Below are positions 37,466 to 58,346 of a DNA stretch of 64,000 bases, one piece after another. The translations under genes were made by a program, and so were the position numbers. The notes below the pieces were generated by a model. That model had not been told where the DNA came from. It saw only the letters and a program-made list of their open reading frames with translations, and ran no database searches. The stretch is from an uncultured Flavobacteriaceae bacterium. Lineage in GTDB: Bacteria; Bacteroidota; Bacteroidia; Flavobacteriales; Flavobacteriaceae. The stretch's first letter is position 1. Every line of letters begins with the position of its first letter. The stretch lies in NCBI GenBank assembly GCA_947502975.1, contig CANNBV010000001.1, positions 1,054,001 through 1,118,000 on the forward strand, in the 5' to 3' direction.

Positions 37466-38761
37466 ATGGGGGTTAATACTTTAAAACCAAAGACCAACAA
37501 ACGCTACGGTATTCTTGCCATGATATTTGTTACCGTAGTAATAAATTATTTAGATAGAACTAATATTTCGGTTGCGGCTTTTGCGCTTCGAAAGGATCTA
37601 GGTATTGATACTGTACAAATGGGGTATGTATTTTCTGCTTTCGGGTGGTTTTATGCATCATTACAAATTCCAGGAGGTATAATAGCAGATAAAGTCAAGT
37701 CAAGAATATTATATACTGTAATTCTTGCGTTTTGGTCTATTGCCACATTATTACAGGGCGTTGTTAATTCTTTTGTAGCGTTGTTAGGTCTTAGAGCAAG
37801 TATTGGTGTTTTTGAAGCACCTTCGTATCCTATAAATAATTTAGTGGTGAGTCGTTGGTTTCCAGAAAAAGAAAGAGCGTCTGCAATAGGAATTTATACG
37901 TCTGGACAGTTTCTTGGTTTAGCCTTTTTAATACCTATTTTAACTGTAATTCAAGAAGCTTATGGATGGCGAGGCCTGTTTATTATCTCTGGTATAATTG
38001 GTCTTGTTTGGGCTGTAATTTGGTATCTATTTTATAGAGATCCAAGAGATCATAAAACTGTTAGTGATTCTGAAATAGAATATATTGAACAAGGAGGCGG
38101 TTTGGTAGGCTCTAAAAATAAAGACAGTCAAAAGAAAAAATTTGATTGGAATGATTTTAAACAAGCTTTCATATATAGAAAGCTTTGGGGAATTTATTTA
38201 GGACAATTTTGCTTAGGAGCTACAACAATGTTTTTTTTAACATGGTTTCCAACATATTTAGTAGAGTTTAGAGGTTTGGATTTTATTAAATCTGGATTTT
38301 TAGCTTCGGTACCTTTTTTAGCTGCTTTTGTTGGGGTACTTTTATCAGGGTTTACTTCAGATTTTCTAATTAAAAAAGGAGTTTCAAATGAGATTGCAAG
38401 AAAAGCACCTATCATAACAGGAATGTTACTATCAACATGTATTATTGGCGCAAATTATACCAATGATACGTTTTTTATCATTTTGTTTTTAGCTATTGCA
38501 TTCTTTGGAACTGGTCTGGCAAGTATAGCATGGGTGTTTGTGTCATTAATAGCACCAAAAGAAAATTTAGGAATAGTAGGAGGAACTTTTAATTTTATAG
38601 GTGGGCTCTCTGGTATTGTGATACCTATAGTTATTGGGTATTTAGTACAGGAAGGAGATTTTAGTCCAGCACTCATATTTATTGCAGCTATAGCTTTTTT
38701 AGGGTTCTTTTCTTATACGTTTTTGGTAGGTAAAGTAGAACGAATAGTTCCAAAGAAATAA
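37466..38761 (+). CDS. MFS sugar-acid (hexonate/hexuronate) transporter, ACS family
   Basis: A proton-driven inner-membrane carrier of the anion:cation symporter family (relatives include DgoT, GudP and ExuT). Twelve helices fit the 431 residues. The family signature appears at once: NKRYGILAMIFVTVVINYLDRTNISVA. AFGWFYASLQIPGGIIADK and RASIGVFEAPSYPI follow in the first half. It begins an apparent operon with two enolase-superfamily dehydratases and a KDPGal-type aldolase, which strongly suggests that its cargo is a hexonate such as galactonate. That would mean the acid is formed outside the cytoplasm. The stop is seven bases from the next start. Confidence 0.9.
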   Translation: MGVNTLKPKTNKRYGILAMIFVTVVINYLDRTNISVAAFALRKDLGIDTVQMGYVFSAFGWFYASLQIPGGIIADKVKSRILYTVILAFWSIATLLQGVVNSFVALLGLRASIGVFEAPSYPINNLVVSRWFPEKERASAIGIYTSGQFLGLAFLIPILTVIQEAYGWRGLFIISGIIGLVWAVIWYLFYRDPRDHKTVSDSEIEYIEQGGGLVGSKNKDSQKKKFDWNDFKQAFIYRKLWGIYLGQFCLGATTMFFLTWFPTYLVEFRGLDFIKSGFLASVPFLAAFVGVLLSGFTSDFLIKKGVSNEIARKAPIITGMLLSTCIIGANYTNDTFFIILFLAIAFFGTGLASIAWVFVSLIAPKENLGIVGGTFNFIGGLSGIVIPIVIGYLVQEGDFSPALIFIAAIAFLGFFSYTFLVGKVERIVPKK

Positions 38762-38768
38762 TATTAAA

Positions 38769-39926
38769 ATGAAAATTACAGCAGTAAAACCATATCCTAT
38801 TAATGTAGGATCGGGAAGTCAATTAGTAGTAAAAGTTGAAACAGATTCTGGTATTTACGGATGGGGCGCATCTGGTCTATCCGGAAGAGAATATGCCGTA
38901 GTAGGGGCTATTCAACATTATGCGCCATTAATTATAGGAAGAAACCCTATGGAAATTGGAGCCATTTGGCAAGATTTATACCGAGGACAATATTTTGAAG
39001 GAGGACGTGTACTAACTGCAGCAATTTCAGCTATTGACATTGCACTGTATGATATTAAGGGAAAAGCATTAGAAGTTCCCGTATATGAATTGTTAGGTGG
39101 AAAACAACGAAATTTTGTACCATGTTTTGCTTCAGTTAGGTTTTCTACTTTTGATGCTTTAATAAACCAATCAAAAAAGATGGTTGATGAAGGCTGGGAT
39201 ATAATAAGACTTGCGCCAGCAGAGTTTGAAGATCAAGAAGATATTACACGTTTTGAACCAAGAGAATCTATTGCAAAATTAGCCGATTGGATGATTGCGT
39301 TACGTAAAGAAGTAGGAAATAAAGTTACTATTGGGTTAGATTATCACAGTAGGTTAACAGCAGCAGAAACGTATTCTTTTATGAATCGCATGCCAAAAGG
39401 AACATTAGACTTTATTGAGGAGCCTATTCGTGATGAAAATCCAGAGGCATACGAAAGTCTCAGAAAAATGGTTGATATACCTTTTGCTATTGGTGAAGAG
39501 TTTGCTAGTAAATGGCAGTTTTTGCCTTTTTTAGAACGAAATATTACACAATATGCACGTATTGATGTTTGTAATGTTGGAGGCATAACAGAGGCGATGA
39601 AGGTGGCTGCAATGGCCGAAGCACATTACATTGATTTAATGCCGCATAATCCACTTGGTCCAATTTGTACAGCGGCAACAATACATGTAGCGGCTGCTAG
39701 TCCTAATTTTAGTTGGCTAGAAGAGGTAAATACAGGTGCTCATGTGTCTACAAACGACCCGAAATTTTATCCAGTACAACCAAAATTAGATGGTCCAAGG
39801 TATCCTGTGCCAACTGCTCCTGGTTTAGGAGTTGAAGTCAATGAAGAACTAGTTGAAAGTAGTGATTTTGTGCCTGTTGAAATTCCAAGATTGAAACGAA
39901 ATGATGGTTCTCTAACGAACTGGTAG
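38769..39926 (+). CDS. Mandelate racemase/enolase-superfamily dehydratase (galactonate dehydratase-like)
   Basis: A cytoplasmic Mg-dependent sugar-acid dehydratase. The metal ligands read as Asp191 (GLDYHS), Glu217 (FIEEP) and Glu243 (IGEEF). His193 and His293 (MPHNPLGP) are the candidate acid/base residues. These spacings are the same as I recall for E. coli galactonate dehydratase (D183, H185, E209, E235, H285). It differs from the second dehydratase at 40583 in the GEE (not GER) motif and in the DYHSRL loop, so a related but different acid is likely. A 3,6-anhydrogalactonate cycloisomerase, also of this superfamily, is a second possibility. Length 385 aa. The aldolase gene follows after 25 bases. 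Confidence 0.85.
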   Translation: MKITAVKPYPINVGSGSQLVVKVETDSGIYGWGASGLSGREYAVVGAIQHYAPLIIGRNPMEIGAIWQDLYRGQYFEGGRVLTAAISAIDIALYDIKGKALEVPVYELLGGKQRNFVPCFASVRFSTFDALINQSKKMVDEGWDIIRLAPAEFEDQEDITRFEPRESIAKLADWMIALRKEVGNKVTIGLDYHSRLTAAETYSFMNRMPKGTLDFIEEPIRDENPEAYESLRKMVDIPFAIGEEFASKWQFLPFLERNITQYARIDVCNVGGITEAMKVAAMAEAHYIDLMPHNPLGPICTAATIHVAAASPNFSWLEEVNTGAHVSTNDPKFYPVQPKLDGPRYPVPTAPGLGVEVNEELVESSDFVPVEIPRLKRNDGSLTNW

Positions 39927-39951: not shown

Positions 39952-40590
39952 ATGGATAGAAAGAAACGCGTTGCAATTATTGAGCGAGAAAAAATAGTAT
40001 TCGTTACGCGCTTAGCAGATCATACTAAAACACAATTGGTGCTAAAAAGTCTGATTGATGGTGGGGCTAAAGTCATGGAGATTACATCAAATACACCAAA
40101 TTTTGCTAACGAGATTTCTAAAGGAAGAATAGCTTTTCCTAATGTTTTAATAGGAGCAGGGACAGTTACAAATAAAATAATAGCAAAAGCAGCAATAGAA
40201 GCTGGAGCACACTTTTTAGTGACGCCAAATACAAATATTGAGTTAATTGAAATTGCTCATAACCACAATATTCCAATATTAATGGGAGCGTTAACACCAA
40301 CTGAGGTATGCGTGGCTTGGCAAGCAGGTGCCGATTTTGTGAAGCTTTTTCCCGCAGATATTATGGGGATTCCGTATTTTACATCAATAAAAGCGCCATT
40401 AAACAATGTCAAACTTTTAGCTGTGGGTGGCATTGAATTAAATTCAGTCAGTACTTGGATGAGTTCTGGTGCCCATGGAATAGGCATTGCCAGTGTTTTG
40501 TCTGAATCAATTTCTGATCAAAACGATTTAGATGCAATTAAGAAAAATGCAGAGGCATTTATTAATGAAATGAAGAAATTAAGTGAATGA
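39952..40590 (+). CDS. 2-dehydro-3-deoxy-phosphogluconate/-galactonate aldolase
   Basis: A class I aldolase that cuts a 2-keto-3-deoxy-6-phosphosugar acid to pyruvate and glyceraldehyde 3-phosphate. The Schiff-base lysine is Lys131 in DFVKLFPAD and the general acid/base is Glu43 in VMEITSNTP. At the position of Arg49 in the E. coli gluconate enzyme (EVTLR) this protein has Asn47, as I recall for E. coli DgoA (EIPLN). That favours phosphogalactonate as substrate. GAGTVTNK and AVGGIEL are further family motifs. The expected KDGal kinase is not in the window. The gene overlaps the next dehydratase start by eight bases. Confidence 0.88.
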   Translation: MDRKKRVAIIEREKIVFVTRLADHTKTQLVLKSLIDGGAKVMEITSNTPNFANEISKGRIAFPNVLIGAGTVTNKIIAKAAIEAGAHFLVTPNTNIELIEIAHNHNIPILMGALTPTEVCVAWQAGADFVKLFPADIMGIPYFTSIKAPLNNVKLLAVGGIELNSVSTWMSSGAHGIGIASVLSESISDQNDLDAIKKNAEAFINEMKKLSE

Positions 40591-41740
40591 TTTAAAAATT
40601 GAAAAAATTGAGTTATTCAAAGTTCCACCACGCTGGTTGTTTTTAAAAATAACAACAGCTTCGGGGATTTTTGGTTGGGGTGAACCTGTCGTTGAGGGTA
40701 AAGCCGATACAGTTGCAGCCTGTATTAAAGAGTTAGAGAAATTCATAATTGGTAGAAATGCTAATGAGATAGAAGATATTTGGCAAATACTTTATCGTGG
40801 AGGTTTTTATCGAGGTGGGCCAATATTAATGAGTGCTATTTCTGGAATTGATCAAGCATTATGGGATATTAAAGGGAAATATTTAAATGTTCCCGTTTAT
40901 GAACTTTTGGGCGGGGCCGTCCGACATAAAATGAAAATGTATTGTTGGATTGGAGGTGACAATCCTGGAGTTATTTTAGAACAGGCGCATGCGAAAGTAA
41001 ATGCTGGATTTAAAGCCGTAAAAATGAATGCCACTAGTGGAATGGATTGGATTTCATCTTTGAGCGATATCAAAAAAGTAGCACATAATATAAAGAGTTT
41101 ACGTGAGGAGTTTGGGTATGATTTAGATGTAGGACTTGATTTTCATGGAAGAGTGCATAAACCAATGGTGAAACGTTTGATAGATGAATTGGCGCCTTAT
41201 GAACCAATGTTTATTGAAGAACCTGTTTTAAGTGAAAATAATGATGCTTTAAGGCATATATATAGTTTTACGAGTATTCCAATAGCTACTGGTGAGCGTA
41301 TGTTTTCTCGTTGGGATTTTAAAGAGGTTTTGCATCAAGGTGTTGTGGATATTATCCAACCAGATTTAAGTCATGCTGGGGGTATTTCAGAAGTTAGAAG
41401 AATTGCTGCAATGGCAGAGGCTTATGATGTGACTTTAGCTCCTCATTGTCCATTAGGCCCGATTTCATTGGCCTCAGCATTACATGTAGATTTCGTTTCT
41501 GCAAATGCAATAATTCAAGAAAGTAGTATTGGTATTCATTATAATAATGACTATGATATTTTAGACTATTTATCAAACCCTGAACTCCTTAATATTAAGG
41601 ATGGTTATATAGCATTATTTCAAAAACCTGGCTTGGGTGTAGAAATAAATGAAGATAAGTTAAAAGAAGCTCAAAAAATAGGTCACGATTGGCATAATCC
41701 CATTTGGAGAGGAGAAGATGGAAATTTCAATGAGTGGTAA
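40583..41740 (+). CDS. dgoD: D-galactonate dehydratase
   Basis: An enolase-superfamily enzyme that dehydrates D-galactonate to 2-keto-3-deoxy-galactonate. The match to the DgoD family is close along the whole length: GLDFHGRVHKPM with Asp186 and His188, FIEEPVL with Glu212, GERMFSRWDF with Glu238, QPDLSHAGGISE, APHCPLGPISLA with His288, IGIHYN, and a final WRGEDG. Length 385 aa. It begins within the last codons of the aldolase. The first of two dehydratases in this operon (38769) is its diverged paralogue. The next gene, a sulfatase, follows closely. Confidence 0.9.
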   Translation: MNDLKIEKIELFKVPPRWLFLKITTASGIFGWGEPVVEGKADTVAACIKELEKFIIGRNANEIEDIWQILYRGGFYRGGPILMSAISGIDQALWDIKGKYLNVPVYELLGGAVRHKMKMYCWIGGDNPGVILEQAHAKVNAGFKAVKMNATSGMDWISSLSDIKKVAHNIKSLREEFGYDLDVGLDFHGRVHKPMVKRLIDELAPYEPMFIEEPVLSENNDALRHIYSFTSIPIATGERMFSRWDFKEVLHQGVVDIIQPDLSHAGGISEVRRIAAMAEAYDVTLAPHCPLGPISLASALHVDFVSANAIIQESSIGIHYNNDYDILDYLSNPELLNIKDGYIALFQKPGLGVEINEDKLKEAQKIGHDWHNPIWRGEDGNFNEW

Positions 41741-41753
41741 AACTAAGCAAATA

Positions 41754-43247
41754 ATGAAATATTTCCTTTTATTGATTGTGTCTTTTGTCTTAATTGGTTG
41801 TGATTCTGATAAAAAAGTTGAAAAACCAAATATCATTCTTTTTGTGGTGGATGACCTAGGGTGGACAGATTTGTCATCCTATGGAAGCGATTTGTATCAA
41901 ACACCTAATGTTGATAAGTTAGCAAAAAATGGAACGAAATTTACAAATGCTTATGCATCCTGTACTGTGTGTTCTCCATCTCGTGCCAGTTTAATGACAG
42001 GAAAATATCCTGCAAGAATTAATTGTACAGATTGGATAAGTGGTCACCAAAAACCATTTGCAAAAATGGCAATTCCAGATTGGACCGAACAGGTGAATTT
42101 AGATGAAGTTACCCTAGCGGAAACGTTAAAAAATGAAGGTTATAGCACTATACATTTAGGGAAATGGCATTTAGGAGAATCTGATAAGTTATGGCCAGAG
42201 TATCAGGGTTTTGATATTAATATTGGAGGGTGGTCTAAAGGAGCACCCCAAAAAGCAAACAACAGTAACGGTTACTTTTCACCATATGGTAACCTTAGAC
42301 TTGAAGATGGACCAGATAATGAATATCTTACAGAGCGTTTAACCCACGAAGCACTGCAATATCTAGAATCAAATAAAGGGAGTGAAGTACCTTTTTTTAT
42401 GAATTTTTGGTTTTATAATGTCCATACACCACTTCAAGCAAAAAAAGAAAAAGTCGACAAATACAGTGCACTTATAAAGGGTGAATCTAACCATAAAAAT
42501 CCAACCTATGCAGCTATGGTTGAGCATATGGATGATGCTATAGGCGATATCGTAAATAAACTTGAAAGTTTAGGGAAATTAAATAATACTATAATAATCT
42601 TTACGAGTGATAATGGAGGGCTAATTGGTAATTATGGATTTCCAAACGAGGTGACTTCAAATGTTCCACTCCGATCTGGTAAGGGTGATATTTATGAAGG
42701 TGGTGTTCGTGTGCCCTTTATTGCTCAATGGTTGAATAAAATTCCGAAAGGGAAATCAATTGATATCCCAATTATTTCACCTGATGTTTACCCTACGATT
42801 TTGGGCTTAGCTGATATAAATGGAGATCCAAACTATAATAAGGAAATGGATGGTGTCAGTTTTTCAGAAGCTTTGATAAAAGGAGATGACGTAGATCGAA
42901 AGGCTATTTTTTGGCATTACCCACATTATCATTTGGAGGGTGCAAAACCATATAGTGCCATTAGAAAAGGAGATTGGAAGTTGATTGAAGTTTTTGAGAA
43001 TAAAAGTATAGAGCTATATAATTTGAAAGAGGATATTGGTGAAACTCAAAATTTATTTTTCGAACAATCAAAAAAAGCAGAAGAACTGATGAATGATTTG
43101 AATGTTTGGAGAAATAAAGTCGATGCACAATTACCGGAAGAAAACCCAAACTATCAAGAAGATTTTGAATCATTTTATAAAAAAGGAAAGTGGTTGCAAA
43201 AATCTGATGGGGAATATCTAGAATACCTTAAAAAGAACCATTTATAA
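41754..43247 (+). CDS. Sulfatase (S1 family, formylglycine type), lipoprotein
   Basis: A periplasmic or surface sulfatase that removes sulfate esters from a glycan. The start at 41754 (MKYFLLLIVSFVLIGC) gives a clean lipoprotein signal; an in-frame ATG at 41718 overlaps dgoD and is less likely. The maturation motif Cys73-Ser-Pro-Ser-Arg (CSPSRASLMTGK) is the site of conversion to formylglycine. The metal site includes VVDDLGW and FTSDNGG, and GKWHLG carries the usual Lys and His. It is 497 aa, normal length. It lies directly downstream of dgoD, which links desulfation to sugar-acid breakdown. Its maturase is not in the window. The target sulfate position is unknown. Confidence 0.92.
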   Translation: MKYFLLLIVSFVLIGCDSDKKVEKPNIILFVVDDLGWTDLSSYGSDLYQTPNVDKLAKNGTKFTNAYASCTVCSPSRASLMTGKYPARINCTDWISGHQKPFAKMAIPDWTEQVNLDEVTLAETLKNEGYSTIHLGKWHLGESDKLWPEYQGFDINIGGWSKGAPQKANNSNGYFSPYGNLRLEDGPDNEYLTERLTHEALQYLESNKGSEVPFFMNFWFYNVHTPLQAKKEKVDKYSALIKGESNHKNPTYAAMVEHMDDAIGDIVNKLESLGKLNNTIIIFTSDNGGLIGNYGFPNEVTSNVPLRSGKGDIYEGGVRVPFIAQWLNKIPKGKSIDIPIISPDVYPTILGLADINGDPNYNKEMDGVSFSEALIKGDDVDRKAIFWHYPHYHLEGAKPYSAIRKGDWKLIEVFENKSIELYNLKEDIGETQNLFFEQSKKAEELMNDLNVWRNKVDAQLPEENPNYQEDFESFYKKGKWLQKSDGEYLEYLKKNHL

Positions 43248-43382: not shown

Positions 43383-45680
43383 ATGAATAGTAGTTTCAAA
43401 ACCTTGTTTTACCTCCTAAAAATAATATTTGCTGTACTTTTTTTTGTGTTTTTTTGTTTTAGCTGTGAATCTCAAAAGAGTGAGCAAAAACAACCAAATA
43501 TCATTTTAATTATGGCAGATGATTTAGGGTTTGAGTGTATAGAAAGCTATGGAGGTACATCATATAAAACGCCTAACATCAATAAATTGGCAGAAACAGG
43601 TTTACAATTTAATAATGCTTATGCACAACCACTTTGCACCCCAACAAGAGTGGAACTAATGACTGGAAAATACAATTTTAGAAATTGGAAAGCTTTTGGC
43701 ATTTTAGATCCTAATGAGAAAACTTTTGGTCACTTAATGCAAGAGGCAGGTTATAAAACTTGTATAGTTGGTAAATGGCAATTGCAGAGTTATGATACTA
43801 TTGGTCATCCAGGTGCTAACCAAAGAAGAGGTTCTGGAATGATGGTGGGTCAGGCTGGGTTTGACGACTATTGTCTATGGCACACAGGACATCAGGAAGA
43901 TAAAGGATCTCGATATCCAAATCCAAAGATTTTACAAAACGGAAAACTCGTCCAGGATACCAAAGATAAATATGGTCCCGATATATTTACTAATTTCTTA
44001 AATGAATTTGTAAGCAAACAAAGTGATAAACCATTCTTTGTTTATTACCCTATGGCCCTAACACATGACCCATTTTCGCCAACTCCAGACAGTGATGCAT
44101 GGTCAAATTATGAAAAACGCTTTGAGAACATGCCAAATCACTTTGGAGATATGGTTGAGTATATGGATAAAGTTGTTGGGAATATTGTAAAAAATTTAGA
44201 GGAAAAAGGGCTTAGAGAAGAAACTCTAATATTATTTTATTCAGATAACGGCACGCATCAAAAAATAACATCTTTATTAAATAACAAGCCATACAAAGGA
44301 GGGAAAGGTTTGACGATTCAATCTGGAATTAAAGTGCCATTTATTGCCAACTGGTCTGGAAAAATTAAAGCGGGTACAAAAACAGATACATACGTTAGTG
44401 CAGTTGATTTTTTACCCACGGTTCTTGATGCCGCAGGTATTGAGATTACAAAAGAGCTTCAAACAGATGGACAAAGCTTTTTAAGTGTATTAAAGGGAGA
44501 ATCTAACCATAGAAGAGATTGGGTGTATATTGGTTACAATCCAAGACCAGGAATTGGTAAGGAACATTTTGAGTTACAAGAATTTGTATTAAACTCAAAA
44601 TATAAATTATATAGTGATGGGCGTTTTTTTAATACGGATGATGATGTATTAGAAGAAAAACCATTGAAAAAGACTGCTATTACAAAAGGTGAAAAAATTG
44701 TGGTTCAAAAGTTTAAAAACATACTAGATTCACTAAATAAATATCCTCCATATGGTTTTGTTGAGCGTTTAGATCCTGTTTTAGATGATATTATTGCAAA
44801 AAACGCAAAGCTTCAGTTAGTAGCAAGAGGGTTTAATTGGTCTGAAGGTCCGGTTTGGCTTCCAAAAGAGCAAAAATTGTTGTTTTCAGATGTGCCAGAA
44901 AATAAAGTGTACCAATGGAGTGAGAAAGAGGGGCTAAGTATTTATCTAACACCTTCAGGATATACAGGAAATAAAGAACATTCAGGAGGAAAAGGATCAA
45001 ATGGGCTAGCCCTGAATAAAGATGATGAATTAATTTTATGTCAACATGGAGATAGAGCAATAAGTAAATTGGTGAGTTTGAGTGATACTAAAACTCCAGT
45101 GTTTCAAAATATTGTTAATAGGTATAAAGGGAAAAAATTTAATTCTCCAAACGATCTAACTTTTGATAAAAAGGGTAATATGTATTTTACAGATCCTCCT
45201 TATGGATTACCTCAAGGTGATTTGGGAGAAATGGGCATGTTTGGTGTTTATTTTTACAGTCTACAAGGAGAAATTAAATTAGTGGATGGTGACTTAGCCA
45301 AGCCAAATGGCATTGTGGTGTCTCATGATGGTAAAACCTTATATGTGGCAGAATCTAATATTCCTAAGCCAATAATATGGGCTTATGACATTATTAATGA
45401 TGGTATTGTGGCGAATAAACGCGTATTTTTTGATCCAGGTGAAATCATAAGTAATAGCTTATTCAAACAAAATCCAGATGGTATTAAATTAGATAAAGAG
45501 GGCAACATATTTGTTGCAGCTGGGGATGGTGTTCTAATTATTACACCAGAAGGTATACACATCGGAACGATTAATATGGGACGATTAACAGGTAATTGTG
45601 AGTTTACAGATGACTACAAGTATCTATTTATTACTGCCGATAATTATTTGGTGAGAGTTGAATTAATGCCCGAGTTATAA
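43383..45680 (+). CDS. Sulfatase fused to SMP-30/gluconolactonase domain, lipoprotein
   Basis: A two-enzyme lipoprotein of 765 aa. A lipobox lies near residue 29 (FFCFSC). Residues about 38-440 are an S1 sulfatase: ILIMADDLGFE, maturation motif Cys85-Thr-Pro-Thr-Arg89, and YSDNGTH. The usual GKWHLG is GKWQLQ, so the His is Gln, as I believe occurs in some subfamilies. Residues about 470-765 are a six-bladed SMP-30/gluconolactonase domain. By comparison with human SMP30 its metal ligands are Glu488 (WSEGP), Asn642 (KPNG) and Asp699 (NPDG), with Asn590 (SPND) near the substrate. All are present, so both halves look active. The fusion suggests that desulfation and lactone opening occur together in the periplasm. 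Confidence 0.92.
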   Translation: MNSSFKTLFYLLKIIFAVLFFVFFCFSCESQKSEQKQPNIILIMADDLGFECIESYGGTSYKTPNINKLAETGLQFNNAYAQPLCTPTRVELMTGKYNFRNWKAFGILDPNEKTFGHLMQEAGYKTCIVGKWQLQSYDTIGHPGANQRRGSGMMVGQAGFDDYCLWHTGHQEDKGSRYPNPKILQNGKLVQDTKDKYGPDIFTNFLNEFVSKQSDKPFFVYYPMALTHDPFSPTPDSDAWSNYEKRFENMPNHFGDMVEYMDKVVGNIVKNLEEKGLREETLILFYSDNGTHQKITSLLNNKPYKGGKGLTIQSGIKVPFIANWSGKIKAGTKTDTYVSAVDFLPTVLDAAGIEITKELQTDGQSFLSVLKGESNHRRDWVYIGYNPRPGIGKEHFELQEFVLNSKYKLYSDGRFFNTDDDVLEEKPLKKTAITKGEKIVVQKFKNILDSLNKYPPYGFVERLDPVLDDIIAKNAKLQLVARGFNWSEGPVWLPKEQKLLFSDVPENKVYQWSEKEGLSIYLTPSGYTGNKEHSGGKGSNGLALNKDDELILCQHGDRAISKLVSLSDTKTPVFQNIVNRYKGKKFNSPNDLTFDKKGNMYFTDPPYGLPQGDLGEMGMFGVYFYSLQGEIKLVDGDLAKPNGIVVSHDGKTLYVAESNIPKPIIWAYDIINDGIVANKRVFFDPGEIISNSLFKQNPDGIKLDKEGNIFVAAGDGVLIITPEGIHIGTINMGRLTGNCEFTDDYKYLFITADNYLVRVELMPEL

Positions 45681-45718: not shown

Positions 45719-48700
45719 ATGAAAAACCTATTGTTGTGCATGTTTTTAGTGGTTTTTCTTTTTAGTTGTGAAAAAGAGCCTTCAATAGAAAAGAGTAAGC
45801 CTTCAACCTCCTTCAATTTACGTTCTCATGAATTTACAGGAATAAATTTTTCTAATAATGTCATTGAAAACGATACACTAAACTATTTCACATTTCCATA
45901 TATGTACATGGGTGGTGGCGTAGCTATTGGTGATATTAATAATGATGGTTTATCTGATGTTTATTTCACCGGAAATATGTCAGAAAACAAGTTGTATCTT
46001 AATAAAGGAGATTTAAAATTTGAAGATATTTCACAAAAAGCAGGTGTAAGTGGTGGTGATAGATGGTATACTGGCGTAACAATGGTCGATATAAATTCTG
46101 ATGGATGGTTAGATATATATGTTTCTGTTTCTGGAATTTTTGGGACGACTAATAATCAATTATTTATTAACAATAAGGACAATACATTTTCTGAAAAAGC
46201 CAAAGAATATGGGTTAGATGATGAAACAGCATCAATACAAGCTACATTTTTTGATTATAATAATGATGGTTTTTTAGATGTATTTGTTGCTAACTATCCT
46301 GTCGTTAAGGTTAGTATGGGAAATAAGTATTACCATGCCTTAATGCAGGAGAACCGCATAGAAAATTCAGGACATCTATATAAAAATAATGGAAATAATA
46401 CATTTACAGATGTAACGGAAGCAACTGGTGTTAAAAACTTCGGAATGACCTTAGGTGTTGTAGTGTCAGACTATAATAATGATGGTTGGAAAGACCTGTA
46501 TTTATCAAATGACTTTAATGTGCCAGATTATTTTTATCTAAATAATGGAGATGGAACATTTAAGGAAGTCATACAAGAAGCTACAAATCATACCGCTATG
46601 TTTGGTATGGGAATAGACGTTGCCGATTTTAATAATGATAAATTACTTGATATAGTTCAACTAGATATGACACCATCTGATTATAAAAGATCAAAAACCA
46701 ATATGGCTAGTATGAATCCTGAGTCTTTTTATGAAGGAGTTGATTTAGGACTTCATTATCAATATATGCAGAACACTTTACAGTTAAACAATGGTGTTAA
46801 TAGAAATGGTGTGCCAATTTATAGCGATATTTCAAGACTTACAGGTTTGGCGACTACCGATTGGAGCTGGGGTACACTCTTTGCCGATTTTGATAACGAT
46901 GGATTAAAAGATATTATCATCACAAATGGTATGAAGCGTGATGTAAATAATAATGATGTGAATCAAAGAACAAATCTTAGTGATTTTTCTGATCTTAATA
47001 AATCTATTGATTATAAGCAATATCCAAGTACACCTTTAGATAATTATGTTTTTAAAAATGAAGGTAATTATAACTTTTTTAAAGCAAATGATTTGTGGAA
47101 TATAAGTTATAAAGGGTTTTCAAACGGTGTCTCCTATGGTGATTTAGATAATGACGGTGATTTAGATATCATAATAAATAATTTAGATGATACTGCATCT
47201 TTGTTTGAAAATAGTATGAATACTGAAACTGGAGGTAATTATTTAAAAATCAAATTGAATGGTTCTAAAAATAATTCTTTTGGATTGGGAGCCAAAGTAG
47301 AGCTTACCTCAAAAAAGAGTAAGCAGTTTCAAGAATTTACACTAACCAGAGGGTTTCAATCTAGTGTTGAACCTATTATTCATTTTGGATTAGGCAAAGA
47401 TGAAATAGTCGAAAAGGTTGCTATCACTTGGGCAAATGGCAATAAACAAACACTAGAAGGAATAGATGTAAATCAGCAATTAGTTTTAAGTTTTGAAAAT
47501 TCTAAAAAAATACATGCCGAAGAAAATATATCTAAAAACGGGTTTTTTAAAGATATAACAGTTGAAGCAGGAATTAACTTCAAGCATTCTGAAGATGATT
47601 ATGATGATTTTGCATTAGAGCCATTATTACCACATAAAAATTCTCAAATGGGACCAGCGCTAACTGTTGGAGATATAAATAATGATGGTTTAGATGATTT
47701 TTTTATTGGTAATGCATCAGGAAAATCAGGGCAAATGTTTATTCAAAAATCCAACGCAACTTTTGATGTGATTGATGGCCCTTGGCTAGATGATAAACAC
47801 CATGAAGATACAGGGGCATTATTATTTGATGTTGATGGTGATTCAGATTTAGATTTATATGTAGTTAGTGGAGGAAATGATCCTTCTAAAACTAGAAGTT
47901 ATTATCAAGATAGATTATATGTAAACACGCCAGAGGGATTTGTGAAATCTTTAAAGTCACTACCATTGATTGATACAAGTGGTTTGGTTGTGACAGCATC
48001 TGATTATGATAATGATGGTGATTTAGACCTATTTATTGGAGGAAGAATAATTCCGGGAAAATATCCATTTCCAGCAAAAAGCTACATTCTTAAAAATGAA
48101 GGCGGTAAAGACGAATCAGCCTATTTTTCTGATGTAACAAGCGAAGTGTTACCAGACTTAGCTGAAGCTGGATTAGTAACATCAGCATTGTGGGATGATT
48201 TTAATAATGATGGTAAAATTGATTTAATTGTTACAGGTGAGTGGATGCCCATTAGATTTTTTAAAAATACTGGAAATAAATTCAAAGAGGTGACTCAAGA
48301 CTTAGGCTTAGAAAATGACACTGGCTGGTGGTATAGTTTGCAGAAAGTTGATTACGATAATGATGGTGATATGGATTATGTGGCTGGAAACCTTGGATTA
48401 AATTATAAATACAAAGCAAAGAAAGAAGCACCTTTTGAAGTTTATGCTAATGATTTTGATGAAAATGGTAGTATGGATATAGTGCTTAGTTATCAAAAGA
48501 AAGGTGTTTTATTGCCTTTAAGAGGTAGAGAGTGCTCCTCCCAACAGGTACCAGCAATTAAACACCGATTTGAAACTTTTGAGCTTTTTGCTGATGCAAC
48601 TCTAGCTGATATTTACGGACAATCCATGTTGGATAAATCGTTGCATTATAAAGCTACAACCTTTGCGAACTCTTGGATTGAAAATAATGGAAATGGTAAA

Positions 48701-49039
48701 TATAGTCTACATCAATTACCAAAAAGAACTCAGTTTTCTTCTATAAATACAATGCAAGTTTTTGATATGAATGATGATGGGTTGTCTGAAATTATTCTTG
48801 GAGGTAATTTATACCAATCAGAAGTAGAAACACCCAGAAACGATTCAGATTATGGACTAGTACTATCCACGACATCAAATTCTCAACCAATCATACACCA
48901 ATCACAAGCAACAGGATTGTTTATTCAAGGTGAAATTAAAAAGATTCAACCTGTATATGTAGGAAAAGAAAAATCATTGTCATTTTTATTTGCTAAAAAT
49001 AATGATAGCCTAAAACTTTTTACACTTAATTCTGAATAG
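45719..49039 (+). CDS. Large FG-GAP/VCBS-repeat protein with UnbV/ASPIC domain, lipoprotein
   Basis: A surface or periplasmic lipoprotein (lipobox LVVFLFSC) of 1106 aa. Two beta-propeller-like blocks are visible, each with seven calcium-binding-type DxDxDG repeats: for example DINNDGLSDVY, DYNNDGFLDVF and DLDNDGDLDII in the first (about 60-500), and DYDNDGDLDLF, DFNNDGKIDLI and DMNDDGLSEII in the second (about 640-1050). An ASPIC/UnbV domain lies between them (about 505-590). Proteins of this CRTAC1-like family occur in many Bacteroidetes glycan loci but have no settled enzyme activity. A carbohydrate-binding or adhesion role is a guess. It precedes susC. Confidence 0.88.
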   Translation: MKNLLLCMFLVVFLFSCEKEPSIEKSKPSTSFNLRSHEFTGINFSNNVIENDTLNYFTFPYMYMGGGVAIGDINNDGLSDVYFTGNMSENKLYLNKGDLKFEDISQKAGVSGGDRWYTGVTMVDINSDGWLDIYVSVSGIFGTTNNQLFINNKDNTFSEKAKEYGLDDETASIQATFFDYNNDGFLDVFVANYPVVKVSMGNKYYHALMQENRIENSGHLYKNNGNNTFTDVTEATGVKNFGMTLGVVVSDYNNDGWKDLYLSNDFNVPDYFYLNNGDGTFKEVIQEATNHTAMFGMGIDVADFNNDKLLDIVQLDMTPSDYKRSKTNMASMNPESFYEGVDLGLHYQYMQNTLQLNNGVNRNGVPIYSDISRLTGLATTDWSWGTLFADFDNDGLKDIIITNGMKRDVNNNDVNQRTNLSDFSDLNKSIDYKQYPSTPLDNYVFKNEGNYNFFKANDLWNISYKGFSNGVSYGDLDNDGDLDIIINNLDDTASLFENSMNTETGGNYLKIKLNGSKNNSFGLGAKVELTSKKSKQFQEFTLTRGFQSSVEPIIHFGLGKDEIVEKVAITWANGNKQTLEGIDVNQQLVLSFENSKKIHAEENISKNGFFKDITVEAGINFKHSEDDYDDFALEPLLPHKNSQMGPALTVGDINNDGLDDFFIGNASGKSGQMFIQKSNATFDVIDGPWLDDKHHEDTGALLFDVDGDSDLDLYVVSGGNDPSKTRSYYQDRLYVNTPEGFVKSLKSLPLIDTSGLVVTASDYDNDGDLDLFIGGRIIPGKYPFPAKSYILKNEGGKDESAYFSDVTSEVLPDLAEAGLVTSALWDDFNNDGKIDLIVTGEWMPIRFFKNTGNKFKEVTQDLGLENDTGWWYSLQKVDYDNDGDMDYVAGNLGLNYKYKAKKEAPFEVYANDFDENGSMDIVLSYQKKGVLLPLRGRECSSQQVPAIKHRFETFELFADATLADIYGQSMLDKSLHYKATTFANSWIENNGNGKYSLHQLPKRTQFSSINTMQVFDMNDDGLSEIILGGNLYQSEVETPRNDSDYGLVLSTTSNSQPIIHQSQATGLFIQGEIKKIQPVYVGKEKSLSFLFAKNNDSLKLFTLNSE

Positions 49040-49265: not shown

Positions 49266-52200
49266 ATGAAAAGAAAACTATTTTTTAGATTTTTTAAAAG
49301 TAGTGCTTTACTATTGCTGTTTTTTGCCATAGTAAACATGCAAAGCGCAAATGCGCAAACAATTTCTGGAACTGTTGTTGACGAAAGTGGTATAGGTATA
49401 CCAGGAGTTAACATCTTAGTTAAAGGGACGTCCACAGGAGCAGTTACCGATTTTGATGGTAATTTTAGTATTGCTGCAAAAAGTGGAGATGTTTTGGTTG
49501 CTTCTTATATAGGTTATGCTACTCAAGAAGTAACTGTTGGATCTCAAAGTAATGTTAATATTACTTTACAACAAGACTTAGAAAGTCTTGACGAGGTTGT
49601 TATTGTAGGATATGGTACTCAGAAGAAATCAGATCTTACTGGGGCTGTTGGTACAGTTAGCGGGAAGGATATTGATAACTTTACATTTACCGATGCTTCA
49701 CAAGCATTACAAGGTAGAGTTGCTGGTGTTAGTGTACAATCTACTGGAGGTGCACCAGGTTCAGGAGCTAATATTGTAATTCGTGGTGCTTCTACATTTA
49801 CTGATATCGGGCCTTTATTCGTTATCGATGGTATGATTACTGGAAGTATGACAAGTGTTAACCCATCTGATATTGAATCTGTTTCGGTGTTAAAAGATGC
49901 ATCAGCGTTAGCAATTTATGGTTCTCGTGCTGCTAATGGAGTTGTGATTATCACAACTAAAAAGGGTACAAGAGGAAAAATTAATATTGAGCTAGACGCT
50001 AGTTATGGTGTGCAAAATATTATAAATACTATTGACTGGGCTAATGCTAGACAATATGCAGACATAGTAAATAGAGCTAGAGATAACGATGGGCAAGCAA
50101 GGTTTCCTGCAAATGATACGCAGTTTGATCCTAATTACTCTAGTGATTTATATGGAGAATCAACAAGATCTGCAGCAATACAGAATGTGAATTTCCGACT
50201 ATCTGGAGGAGGTGAAAATACACTATATAGCCTTTCCTTTAATGATTATGATGAAGAAGGTGTAATTAAGTTTTCTGATTTTAAAAGAACTACCGTAAGA
50301 GCTAATGGAAGTTTTTCTAAAGGGAAATTTAAATTGGAAAGCACCATCGGTTTAACAAGAACTGTAAATAATCCAAATCCATATTTCAATAGAGAAAGAA
50401 ACCTTATACCAACAATAAGGTTGTTTAATGATGCTGGAGAATGGAGTGCTGATGATAGAGCAGATAGAGGTATAACTGGTATAGCTCTAGGAGCATTTTA
50501 TGGGCCAGGTACTATTACCAATGAGCTAGGTTTTGCTGCTTTAGAAGACAGAACTGCTACTAGAAACACAGTTTTGGGGAATGTTATTGGATCTTTTGAG
50601 ATTTTAGACGGTTTAACTGCTAAAGTTAATCTAGGTATAGAAAGTTTTTCAAACAATAACTTTAGGTTTAGTCCTGATGAACAAGTTATTTTTGATGGCT
50701 CTAATAGAGCATTTTCAGAGTTAAGTGAGACAAATACTAATTTTTTATCTACGTTAGTTGAAACTACCTTAAACTACAAAAAGACTTTTGATAAACATAC
50801 TATTGATTTGGTTGCAGGAGCAACAGAGCAAATTAATAATACCAGAAATTTAGGGGCCAATGCTATTAATTTTCCTAATAATGAGGTACGAGTGGCTTCA
50901 GCAGGGGAGATTCAAAGTGTAGGATCTGCTGATAATACATCAGTAATTCAATCTTATTTTGGAAGGTTAAATTATACATTCGATGACAGATATGTAATAA
51001 CAGCTACATTGCGTCGCGATGGTTCTTCTCTTTTTAGAGATGGTTTAAGATGGGGGTCTTTCCCTTCTGGAGCGATTGCATGGAATTTGAGTAATGAGTC
51101 ATTTATGGAAGACTTTGATGCTTTAACAAATATTAAAATTCGTGCTGGTTATGGAGAAATAGGTTCTAATAATGTGCCAATATATTCTACAGACCCAGTT
51201 CTAAACCTTTTTAGTGATTATGTTTTTAATAATACTCGTGTAAATGGTTATGCAATTACTAATAGTGTAAACCCTTTTATCACTTGGGAAACTACAAAAA
51301 CTACTAACATTGGTTTGGAGTTTAACGCTTTAAGTAATAAATTGAATGTTACTATGGATTATTACATTAAAGAAACTGAGGATATTCTAGTAGCAACACC
51401 ATTTTCTTTTATTACAGGTACGGGAAATGCTGTACCAGCAAATAATGGTAGTATAGAAAATAAAGGGTTTGAGTTTTTGGCAAACTATAGAGATCAAATA
51501 GGAGATCTTAGATTTGGAGCTACAGTAAATTTCTCTACTTTAAAGAATGAAGTTACTTCAATTGGAGATGGGGCTGCAATTAGACAAGGTTCTTTTACAT
51601 CAAATACAATTAATAGTACAAGAACAGATGTAGGACAACCTATAGGTTCTTTTTATGGGTATTTAACAGATGGTATTTATCAAACAGATGCTGAAGCAAC
51701 TGCAGCTAATGATCAACCAGGAAACCCAAGAGCTGGAGATTTAAGGTTTAAGGATGTAGATGGGGATGGTGATATCGATGAAGATGATCAAGTTTATCTT
51801 GGATCTGGTATCCCAACCTTTGAATATGGAATTAACTTAACTGCTGAATACAAGAACTTTGATTTAAGTCTATTTTTCAATGGAGTATCTGGTAATAAAT
51901 TATTGAATGGAACAAAATATAGAGGGTATTTTGATTTCAATGGTAATTATTTTGCAGATGCTTTAAACGCATGGACACCATCAAATACAAATACAAATAT
52001 TCCAAGAAATACTCAGGCAGATCCTGGATTTAATAGAAGAATGTCTGACTTCTATTTAGAGAATGGAGGTTTCTTCCGTTTGAGAAATGCTCAAATTGGG
52101 TATTCAATTCCAGATAACATACTTGAAAAAATAAAACTAGAAAAAGTAAGATTTTATTTAACTGCTATTAACTTATTTACTATTACAGATTATACTGGCT

Positions 52201-52325
52201 ATTATCCAGAAGTTGGTCGTAACGGTAGAGGAGCTAATGGAAGAAGTATACTTAATACAGGTGTAGATGAAGGATCTTATCCTACACCTAGAACCTTTCA
52301 ACTTGGCGTACAAGTTTCTTTTTAA
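49266..52325 (+). CDS. SusC-type TonB-dependent outer-membrane transporter
   Basis: The outer-membrane channel of the locus, importing oligosaccharides with TonB energy. A signal peptide covers residues 1-31 (ends SANAQ). A carboxypeptidase-like regulatory domain follows (about 32-115, ISGTVVDESGIGIPGVNI), then the plug (VVIVGYGTQKKSDLTGA, RVAGVSVQSTGG) and a 22-strand barrel ending in the aromatic residue of GVQVSF. Length 1019 aa. It is paired with the adjacent susD gene, ten bases downstream. The 226-base gap upstream probably holds a promoter controlled by the locus regulator. Confidence 0.96.
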   Translation: MKRKLFFRFFKSSALLLLFFAIVNMQSANAQTISGTVVDESGIGIPGVNILVKGTSTGAVTDFDGNFSIAAKSGDVLVASYIGYATQEVTVGSQSNVNITLQQDLESLDEVVIVGYGTQKKSDLTGAVGTVSGKDIDNFTFTDASQALQGRVAGVSVQSTGGAPGSGANIVIRGASTFTDIGPLFVIDGMITGSMTSVNPSDIESVSVLKDASALAIYGSRAANGVVIITTKKGTRGKINIELDASYGVQNIINTIDWANARQYADIVNRARDNDGQARFPANDTQFDPNYSSDLYGESTRSAAIQNVNFRLSGGGENTLYSLSFNDYDEEGVIKFSDFKRTTVRANGSFSKGKFKLESTIGLTRTVNNPNPYFNRERNLIPTIRLFNDAGEWSADDRADRGITGIALGAFYGPGTITNELGFAALEDRTATRNTVLGNVIGSFEILDGLTAKVNLGIESFSNNNFRFSPDEQVIFDGSNRAFSELSETNTNFLSTLVETTLNYKKTFDKHTIDLVAGATEQINNTRNLGANAINFPNNEVRVASAGEIQSVGSADNTSVIQSYFGRLNYTFDDRYVITATLRRDGSSLFRDGLRWGSFPSGAIAWNLSNESFMEDFDALTNIKIRAGYGEIGSNNVPIYSTDPVLNLFSDYVFNNTRVNGYAITNSVNPFITWETTKTTNIGLEFNALSNKLNVTMDYYIKETEDILVATPFSFITGTGNAVPANNGSIENKGFEFLANYRDQIGDLRFGATVNFSTLKNEVTSIGDGAAIRQGSFTSNTINSTRTDVGQPIGSFYGYLTDGIYQTDAEATAANDQPGNPRAGDLRFKDVDGDGDIDEDDQVYLGSGIPTFEYGINLTAEYKNFDLSLFFNGVSGNKLLNGTKYRGYFDFNGNYFADALNAWTPSNTNTNIPRNTQADPGFNRRMSDFYLENGGFFRLRNAQIGYSIPDNILEKIKLEKVRFYLTAINLFTITDYTGYYPEVGRNGRGANGRSILNTGVDEGSYPTPRTFQLGVQVSF

Positions 52326-52335
52326 AAAAAATAAT

Positions 52336-53919
52336 ATGAAAAACATGAAAAACATGAAAAAATTAAAGAACTCAGTTAAGATTACGTTGGTAATACTAGC
52401 AGTTTGCTTTATCAACTTAAATTGTTCAGAGGACAAGCTTGATCAAGTAAATCCTAACTCAATTACACCTGCATCTTTCTGGAAAACAGAGGCAGATGCA
52501 ACTAAAGGAGTTATTGGTGCTTATGCTCCATTTACCAATATTTGGTATTATACCAGATTTGAAATCTTTACTTCAGATTACAGAGATGATGTTATTAATG
52601 GATTTAATACTTCAGAGCGTACAGCAGTAGGTTATTTTAGTGGTACCCCAGATAGTAATGCAACGTTCTGGGTTTGGCAAGCACAATTTCAAGGTGTTGC
52701 CAGAGCAAATGAAGTTATTTTTAGAGTGCCTCAAATCGAGGGTATGGATGCAACTTTAAGAGATAACATAACAGGTGAGGGCTATTTTATTAGAGCGTTT
52801 AACTATTTTAATTTACTAAATAGCTGGAGAAATTTGCCGTTACTAACTGTGCCAACTTCAGAAATCCCTGATCTTACAGCTATTCCACAAGAGGATCCTT
52901 CTGTTATATGGGCACAGATTGAATCTGATTTACAGCAAGCACAAAACTTATTACCAGTTTCTTGGTCAGCAGATAACGCAGGAAGAGCAACTTCTGGTGC
53001 TGCTACAGGATTGTTAGGTAAAGTTTACTTATATCAAGGGAAGCATGCAGAAGCTAAAGCCGAATTTCAGAAAGTTATGAGCAGTGGTACATATCAATTA
53101 ATGGACGATTATGCGCATAACTTTACCGAAGAGTTTGAAAATAATGCTGAATCATTATTCGAAATTCAAATGGTATCCGATGGTAACGGTGGCTGGGGTG
53201 CAGACCGTGCTAATTCAGGAAAAGGTTCAGGATATCAACCAGATTTGGCGCCTATAGGCTATACAAATCAAAACGGTATGCGTGTAAATCAATGGGCTTT
53301 GGATTTATTTTTAGATGAGCAAACTATAAATGGCGAAATTGACCCAAGAACTTACACTACTTTTTTCTGGAATACAGAGGAAACCACAGACTATCAGGGT
53401 AAAACTTTAAGATCTAGAACATATGAGAATACCTCGTATACGGATGCATATTCCGCAGCTGACACAAACATTTACGGTAATAAATGGCAAGATTGGGAAT
53501 TTAATGGAAAAACTCAATCACTAGATGGAGGTTGGCATGGAGCTGGAAATAATTTAAGAATATTAAGATATGCTGATGTACTTCTAATGTTTGCTGAAGC
53601 TGAGTTTATGTTGAATGGTTCAACTCAAGCTGCTTTAGATGCTATTAATGAGGTTAGAGAAAGAGCAGATCTAGCTCCACATGCGTCGATCACTATGCAG
53701 GATATAGAAGATGAGAGAGTAAAGGAATGTACTTTTGAGCGTACCCGTTATTTTGATTTGTTACGTTGGGGTAGAGTTAAATCTAGAATTGTAGATAATC
53801 CTGATTTAAAGTCTGAAAGCGCAGGTACAGCAGCTTATAAGCCGGGTAGAGAGTATATTGCAATTCCTCAAAATGATATCGATAGAAACCCGCTTTGGTC
53901 ACAAAACGATGGTTATTAA
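52336..53919 (+). CDS. SusD-type surface glycan-binding lipoprotein
   Basis: The lid and binding partner of the SusC transporter. The start at 52336 gives MKNMKNMKKLKN followed by a hydrophobic stretch and a lipobox Cys30 (FINLNC). Three closely spaced ATGs (at 52336, 52345 and 52354, from a repeated atgaaaaac unit) could all serve. The TPR-type SusD fold shows in SFWKTEADATKG, GEGYFIRAFNYFNLLN, ATGLLGKVYLYQGKHAEAK and the C-terminal RNPLWSQNDGY. About 527 aa, normal for the family. Followed by a terminator, so susC-susD end a transcript. Confidence 0.95.
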   Translation: MKNMKNMKKLKNSVKITLVILAVCFINLNCSEDKLDQVNPNSITPASFWKTEADATKGVIGAYAPFTNIWYYTRFEIFTSDYRDDVINGFNTSERTAVGYFSGTPDSNATFWVWQAQFQGVARANEVIFRVPQIEGMDATLRDNITGEGYFIRAFNYFNLLNSWRNLPLLTVPTSEIPDLTAIPQEDPSVIWAQIESDLQQAQNLLPVSWSADNAGRATSGAATGLLGKVYLYQGKHAEAKAEFQKVMSSGTYQLMDDYAHNFTEEFENNAESLFEIQMVSDGNGGWGADRANSGKGSGYQPDLAPIGYTNQNGMRVNQWALDLFLDEQTINGEIDPRTYTTFFWNTEETTDYQGKTLRSRTYENTSYTDAYSAADTNIYGNKWQDWEFNGKTQSLDGGWHGAGNNLRILRYADVLLMFAEAEFMLNGSTQAALDAINEVRERADLAPHASITMQDIEDERVKECTFERTRYFDLLRWGRVKSRIVDNPDLKSESAGTAAYKPGREYIAIPQNDIDRNPLWSQNDGY

Positions 53920-53990: not shown

Positions 53991-54066
53991 TTATATTCAA
54001 TAATTTATAATTTAAAACAGTCCTTCTAGTACAATCATGAATAGATATTATTTCCATTATTCAAAA

Positions 54067-58245: not shown

Positions 58246-58346
58246 ATTTTTACTTGTAGTAATTATGGTTATAGCTATTCTAACAACTTTTGGAAGTTAA
58301 TTATAGAGACTTCTACTATTTTTATAAATATTTAAAAAAAGAATAT

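Follow-up and report, generated by a model that had tools for sequence, protein, structure and literature searches.

The fusion gene and its product

The window examined here is a stretch of 64,000 nucleotides from an uncultured Flavobacteriaceae bacterium (GenBank assembly GCA_947502975.1, contig CANNBV010000001.1, positions 1,054,001 to 1,118,000 of the forward strand), and at positions 43383–45680 of its + strand it contains an open reading frame (ORF) in which a sulfatase is joined to a gluconolactonase-type propeller. The frame runs unbroken from its ATG for 765 amino acids and includes both enzyme parts: residues 38–353 (43494–44441, +) match the Pfam Sulfatase family PF00884 (E 1.2e-53) over positions 1–301 of a 301-position profile, and residues 486–752 (44838–45638, +) match the SMP-30/gluconolactonase family SGL, PF08450 (E 3.1e-38), over positions 1–244 of 246, a full propeller. 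An earlier note on this DNA had described a complete sulfatase with the maturation motif CTPTR joined in one frame to a complete SMP-30 domain, and the full-length profile matches, together with the four metal ligands present in the propeller, bear this out. Judged by eye from the translation, the N terminus (43383–43466, +) looks like a lipoprotein signal, with a helix at residues 4–26 in the structural model followed by a lipobox-like FSC ending at C28, which fits the lipobox rule, and the protein is thus a predicted lipoprotein.

An AlphaFold2 model built from 36 sequences (the window and the fetched loci) has a mean predicted local distance difference test score (pLDDT) of 90.5 and a predicted TM score (pTM) of 0.74, and both folds are modeled with confidence. 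Foldseek matches to the N-terminal half are sulfatases, the best being 9fo1 at 27% identity, and the propeller half matches the Xanthomonas gluconolactonase 3dr2 with a TM score, normalized by target, of 0.89. The last sulfatase helix, assigned by DSSP on the model, spans residues 435–451 (44685–44735, +) and lies directly ahead of the propeller.

The formylglycine maturation motif CTPTR occupies residues 85–89 (43635–43649, +), and nine sulfatase positions (D46, D47, C85, R89, K131, H228, D288, N289, and K308) are invariant in all 17 SGL fusions that we collected, the window copy included. Among 78 wider relatives each of these positions has at most one deviating letter, gaps apart, and the motif cysteine and arginine are each present in 77 of the 78 rows of the sulfatase tree. 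The histidine of the GKWH motif, carried by the solved sulfatases 9fo1, 6prm, and 7stt in our alignments, is replaced here by glutamine (Q133), as it is in 76 of the 78 relatives, and the glutamine is therefore a mark of the clade. In the propeller, the metal-ligand positions E488, N590, N642, and D699 are all present in the window copy and align with those of 3dr2 and 3e5z; they are kept in 17/17, 16/16, 16/16, and 15/16 of the SGL fusions, respectively (one copy has glycine for D699, and locus L008 is cut off), and in 39, 39, 39, and 38 of 39 rows when fused and lone propellers are taken together. With the catalytic or ligand role of each sulfatase and propeller residue presumed from the respective families, both halves look active.

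Genes surrounding the fusion

Five genes lie upstream of the fusion gene, all on the + strand. The first (37466–38761) encodes a major facilitator superfamily (MFS) transporter of the D-galactonate type, with a TIGR00893 score of 403.8 bits that exceeds the cut-off of 395. It is followed by an enolase-superfamily acid-sugar dehydratase, DgoD_a (38769–39926), whose PRK14017 score of 280 bits is under the cut-off of 311; among solved relatives it matches 3rr1 (E 1.2e-59), with DauB (5olc, E 1.4e-38) at rank 25, so that a DauB-like role, which we considered for it, is no more than possible. A KDPG/KDPGal-type aldolase (39952–40590; PF01081, E 5.7e-35, with all listed NCBIfam models below cut-off) and a second dehydratase, DgoD_b (40583–41740), come next. 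DgoD_b scores 616 bits against PRK14017 and matches 3rr1 at E 3.3e-141, and the galactonate dehydratase of the De Ley-Doudoroff pathway is present in this form. A second sulfatase, in an ORF of its own (41718–43247; PF00884, E 2.7e-56), immediately precedes the fusion gene.

Downstream, also on the + strand, is an FG-GAP/ASPIC-UnbV protein (45719–49039; PF13517 and PF07593) that resembles CRTAC1 (9etn, E 3.4e-17); such a protein recurs close to SusC/D genes and the fusion in several related loci. It is followed by a SusC-like TonB-dependent transporter (49266–52325; PF07715 and PF00593), a SusD-like protein (52267–53919; PF07980 and PF14322), a hybrid two-component regulator (54037–58245; PF07494, PF02518, PF00072, and PF12833), and a 721-amino-acid ORF (58290–60455) related to BPa0997 (6hze, E 2.6e-20 over residues 37–341). 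The latter had no match in a Pfam scan, and its homolog at one related fusion locus (L130) sits beside a glycoside hydrolase family 2 (GH2) gene and near galactonate genes; BPa0997 is, we presume, a glycoside hydrolase, and this ORF is possibly an undescribed glycosidase. We read the locus as one for galactan-type utilization that would end in galactonate breakdown. A galactose-like sugar, in line with the assay substrates that the earlier note had suggested, is supported by the transporter for D-galactonate and the dehydratase encoded here.

Distribution of the sulfatase-SGL fusion

Counting each distinct locus once and including the window, the fusion to SGL is present at 17 loci, distributed among Flavobacteriaceae, one Cytophagales metagenome-assembled genome (MAG), and one Opitutales MAG; carriers include Algibacter (L004), Jejuia (L005), Allomuricauda (L007), and the Opitutales MAG (L006), and in the Cytophagales MAG (L008) the fusion is truncated by the contig end. 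The similarity search for relatives retained the best 80 of 93 matches. When a query spanning the junction and the propeller was compared with 397 genomes of the family to which the window belongs, the fusion was recovered at 13 places in 12 genomes, with the sulfatase half verified as well; longer frames with weaker SGL matches (G110, G121, G318, G356, G299, and G236) are not counted among these. Within its own genome the query protein has 56 matches, some of them partial.

Fifteen of the 17 SGL fusions entered the sulfatase tree, from which L135 and L134 (the latter nearly identical to L137) were omitted, as was, for its short length, a further relative, L082; these 15 rows form a single clade with support of 100/99 that contains no unfused row. 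The Opitutales copy (L006:9962-12253) clusters with the Bacteroidota copies, which suggests either horizontal transfer or a binning error. In the propeller tree the picture is more intermixed, with the lone propellers of L015, L021, L136, and L143 placed among fused copies, so that the fused label needs six changes; these four and L123 fall within a 21-row clade supported at 96/91. Because the propeller at L015 clearly keeps the last sulfatase helix in front of it (none of 500 shuffles scores as high), the sulfatase part was lost there. At L143 (14/500 shuffles) and L021 (63/500) the best helix segment stands at the same place and is weak, and the same test gave no trace at L136 (424/500) or L123 (184/500); the idea that all lone lactonases of the fused group retain this helix thus holds clearly for L015 alone. 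One old fusion followed by later losses of the sulfatase part is the simplest reading of the two trees, with repeated fusion a possible, less simple alternative.

The neighborhoods of these loci vary. The dehydratase homolog is present at 6 of the 16 other SGL-fusion loci, at 3 of 4 lone-SGL loci, and at 1 of the 68 loci where no lactonase fusion was detected, counts taken over flanks of unequal length and some short contigs. The single case among the 68, the unfused relative L013 from a Latescibacteria MAG, is accompanied by galactonate-dehydratase homologs and a GFO/IDH/MocA oxidoreductase. Around the lone propeller at L021 the cluster and its gene order are preserved, with no sulfatase within the 20.9-kb stretch, and those at L015 and L136 are accompanied by shorter versions of the cluster that include galactonate genes; L143 has none of these genes. 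A GH2 gene adjoins the transporter at both L130 and L021 (81% identity between the two), and oligosaccharides are therefore probably cut there. GntR/FCD regulators stand alongside the fusion at L131, L133, and L141, and a zinc alcohol dehydrogenase and a short-chain dehydrogenase/reductase (SDR) precede it at L006. At L004 the adjoining genes on the opposite strand encode an SDR, an amidohydrolase-2 protein, an altronate/galactarate-type dehydratase, and a zinc dehydrogenase, a set that, to our mind, recalls a fucose-type oxidative pathway. A cytochrome P450 gene is also found near the lone-lactonase cluster (L021:919-2325); enzymes of this type are known to demethylate 6-O-methylgalactose in the use of red-algal galactans.

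A second lactonase fusion in the same sulfatase clade

A separate group of these sulfatases is joined, at the same end as in the SGL fusions, to PF10282, the seven-bladed Lactonase family. Its fused members form a clade of their own in the sulfatase tree (nine rows, support 100/99, with L020, L022, and L023 being near-copies), with which the unfused L009 and L010 group (96/87) and L018 more weakly (93/65); their records include Verrucomicrobiales and Planctomycetaceae. One member, L019, is counted as fused in the trees and falls below threshold in the locus counts, its contig ending within the PF10282 domain. Among 584 genomes of two orders, five carry this fusion, the two starting genomes included. 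In a comparison by hhalign, SGL and PF10282 show a similarity (87.4%, E 3.7e-6, 124 columns) that is weak and joins non-matching parts of the two propellers, and PF10282 is therefore called a different family. Moreover, for each fused lactonase domain there are proteins of the same family that stand alone and are about 40 to 50% identical to it, and together these observations make two acquisitions likelier than one domain that changed; the sulfatase-lactonase fusion thus probably arose twice. Among 216 sulfatase ORFs and fragments at 96 loci, GKWQ is present in all 24 that are fused to a lactonase, while the 124 lacking this motif include no fusion, figures that describe a sample fetched by similarity to the window protein and not a census. 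That the two reactions are linked, as the earlier note had claimed, is strengthened both by the 17 loci that share the fusion and by this second lactonase family.

The proline of the maturation motif varies among these proteins. It is present in 11 of the 17 SGL fusions (the window and ten others) and replaced by asparagine in 6 (L006, L130, L132, L135, L139, and L141), and asparagine is found in all nine PF10282 fusions (L014, L016, L019, L020, L022, L023, and L186–L188), in the further relatives L025, L028, and L039, and in 4 of the 63 rows for which no fusion is known. Asparagine in place of proline in C-x-P-x-R is unusual among formylglycine-dependent enzymes.

Several other observations concern the wider group. 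In 8 of the 13 longer stretches opened (L174, L175, L177–L181, and L183), a PF10282 lactonase that stands alone, with about 50% identity to the fused domain, has a GKWGL sulfatase nearby, in genomes that may simply be sulfatase-rich. A scan of ten genes adjoining PF10282 fusions and related genes revealed no common pathway. At L170:256-2565 a 770-amino-acid frame ends in PF10282 and has about 400 residues without a Pfam match in front of it. A third group comprises three Rubripirellula loci with an extra C-terminal domain of about 200 amino acids on the sulfatase (L025:5251-5859, L028:11237-11845, and L039:1181-1789). We considered this as a third lactonase and rejected it, since the domain has no Pfam match (L025 and L028 scanned) and no PDB match (L025), and its model is weak and mostly beta (pLDDT 57.5).

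Proposed function and alternative explanations

We infer that the product of the fusion gene is a bifunctional periplasmic or surface lipoprotein that desulfates a galactose-derived substrate and opens an aldonolactone ahead of galactonate import, an account toward which, on balance, we lean. The substrate would be taken up via the neighboring SusC/D pair, its sulfate ester would be removed by the sulfatase half, and the propeller half would then open the corresponding aldonolactone, in its 1,4 or 1,5 form, so that the two domains may act in sequence on the same molecule. D-Galactonate would enter the cytoplasm through the MFS transporter and be converted by a DgoD-type enzyme to 2-keto-3-deoxygalactonate, to be phosphorylated and then cleaved by the aldolase. 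To our knowledge, the substrates of most marine sulfatases are not known from sequence; for one clade of them, a fused partner whose reaction can be predicted, and which is drawn from two lactonase families, gives a direct indication of the substrate. The combination with two different kinds of lactonase points to a common step in the breakdown of sulfated sugars, and it supports the view that sulfated galactans are also broken down by an oxidative route through galactonate, alongside the usual galactose route.

A number of observations weigh against this account. The sulfatase is far from characterized enzymes, and with 27% identity to 9fo1 its substrate is not predictable from such relatives; its maturation motif also varies, with asparagine for proline in 6/17 SGL fusions and 9/9 PF10282 fusions. 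At 10 of the 17 SGL-fusion loci, some of which lie on short contigs, the flanks that were fetched contain no galactonate-dehydratase gene; L134, L137, and L140 are instead surrounded by other sulfatases, and dehydratase homologs are present at none of the eight PF10282-fusion loci. Separate SGL genes accompany only 1 of 68 loci without a fusion (L012, one gene away from the unfused relative) and 2 of 8 with the PF10282 fusion (L186, directly upstream; L016, 3.6 kb upstream with two intervening genes), and at 3 of the 76 loci that lack an SGL fusion, such proximity is a weak sign. In the window itself, no sugar or galactose dehydrogenase is present among the 12 cluster ORFs scanned with Pfam, and the source of the lactone is therefore unproven; outside the cluster, the genome has two sugar-dehydrogenase matches (PF07995) that could provide it. 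A PF05035 search of the genome for a DGOK-type kinase gave no match, other kinase families lying outside that search. Lastly, the L021 locus, with its lactonase and galactonate genes and no sulfatase, indicates that the coupling is not obligatory.

The same locus bears on a different explanation, that the halves serve different stages and different molecules, with the sulfatase trimming an oligosaccharide and the lactonase later opening an unsulfated galactonolactone, the fusion merely ensuring that both are expressed together, anchored at the membrane, and kept in fixed proportion there. The lone lactonases that stand with galactonate genes at L021, L015, and L136 are consistent with this, and L021 in particular shows that the lactonase half needs no sulfated substrate; the GH2 genes beside the transporter at L130 and L021 fit as well. 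So do the sulfatase-glycosidase fusions already described and the separate lactonase and galactonate dehydratase genes of a carrageenan locus in Pseudoalteromonas carrageenovora (PMC6388578, PMC8511951, PMC6262041). However, this explanation alone does not predict that the same sulfatase clade should join a second lactonase family, and we regard it as possible but rather unlikely. It does bear on the earlier note's further step, that the fusion implies a sulfated aldonolactone, which is no more than a possibility: the sulfatase may act on an oligosaccharide or a free sugar and the lactonase only later, and at L021 the lactonase occurs with no sulfatase in the 20.9-kb stretch.

A more specific form of coupling is that sulfated galactose is oxidized first, giving a sulfated galactonolactone that the fused enzyme both desulfates and opens in one visit. 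If true, this would explain why one sulfatase clade gained a lactonase twice. A sulfate on O4 would block the stable 1,4-lactone, and desulfation would free O4; with the sulfate at that position, opening of the 1,5-lactone by the tethered lactonase would forestall its rearrangement. We hold this oxidation-first route to be doubtful.

Alternatively, the propeller could be a former enzyme that now serves the sulfatase as a module for binding or docking. Beta-propellers often bind, the weak propeller-repeat similarity shared by SGL and PF10282 could reflect a general liking for propellers, and the three Rubripirellula relatives carry yet another domain, of about 200 amino acids and mostly beta in a weak model. 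Nonetheless, the metal-ligand positions are kept, the closest fold is that of a gluconolactonase, and the propeller stays with galactonate genes even when it stands alone, all of which make a docking role improbable. We give still less credence to the notion that the sulfatase fold acts on a phosphate or other ester, or stays unmatured, and that the lactone is a non-sugar natural product. The sulfatase fold also includes phosphate-ester hydrolases, and both the glutamine for histidine in GKWH and the many members with asparagine for the motif proline could be taken in its favor, but the window copy has a canonical CTPTR, its neighbors are sugar-acid genes, and other sulfatases are nearby; this notion is very improbable. 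An assembly error joining two genes, which the earlier note had named as a possible refutation, is excluded, since the same frame and junction recur at the 13 places in 12 family genomes and in other groups, leaving a chimera with next to no probability.

Relation to known systems

Full-text searches of open-access papers brought up no protein in which a sulfatase is joined to a lactonase, and within that scope the earlier note's view that no such protein had been described is uncontradicted, although domain databases may well list this architecture already. What is new here is that a second group of the same sulfatase clade is fused to PF10282. The closest solved structures of the propeller half, the gluconolactonase XC5397 (3dr2) and 3e5z, are both single-domain entries. 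The closest solved relatives of the sulfatase half are the S1_16/S1_19 carrageenan sulfatases (9fo1, 6prm, and 6psm), at about 27% identity or less; these have no lactonase part and, in the 9fo1 and 6prm alignments, carry the histidine of GKWH where the fusion clade has glutamine. The proposed route also resembles the sulfo-Entner-Doudoroff pathway, in which a sugar with a sulfur group is oxidized to a lactone that is processed by a lactonase, a dehydratase, and an aldolase, but that pathway deals with a sulfonate and not a sulfate ester, is cytoplasmic, and works without a sulfatase.

Two elements of this picture are already in print: sulfatase-glycosidase fusions, and a lactonase together with galactonate dehydratase in a carrageenan locus. 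The latter is polysaccharide utilization locus (PUL) 7 of P. carrageenovora, which includes a D-galactonate dehydratase and a sugar lactone lactonase and was read by its authors as a possible De Ley-Doudoroff route; there, the lactonase and the sulfatases appear as separate genes, whereas here they are one protein (PMC6262041). The D-anhydrogalactose pathway of Zobellia (dauA-D) likewise places sulfatases and a 2-keto-3-deoxygalactonate route in one regulon, but it starts from 3,6-anhydro-D-galactose, and the main text of that report mentions no lactonase (PMC5698469). Sulfatase-rich bacteria are described as having fusions of S1_7 with GH10 or GH32 and of S1_15 with GH29, which are gene fusions of the same general kind, again with no lactonase mentioned in the main text (PMC6388578). 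A further parallel is P36 of the ulvan pathway, in which an S1_25 sulfatase is fused to GH78 and the two domains work in consecutive steps; like the protein described here, it is a Bacteroidota sulfatase joined to a second enzyme, but its partner is a glycosidase and not a lactonase, and it acts on another polysaccharide (PMC8511951).

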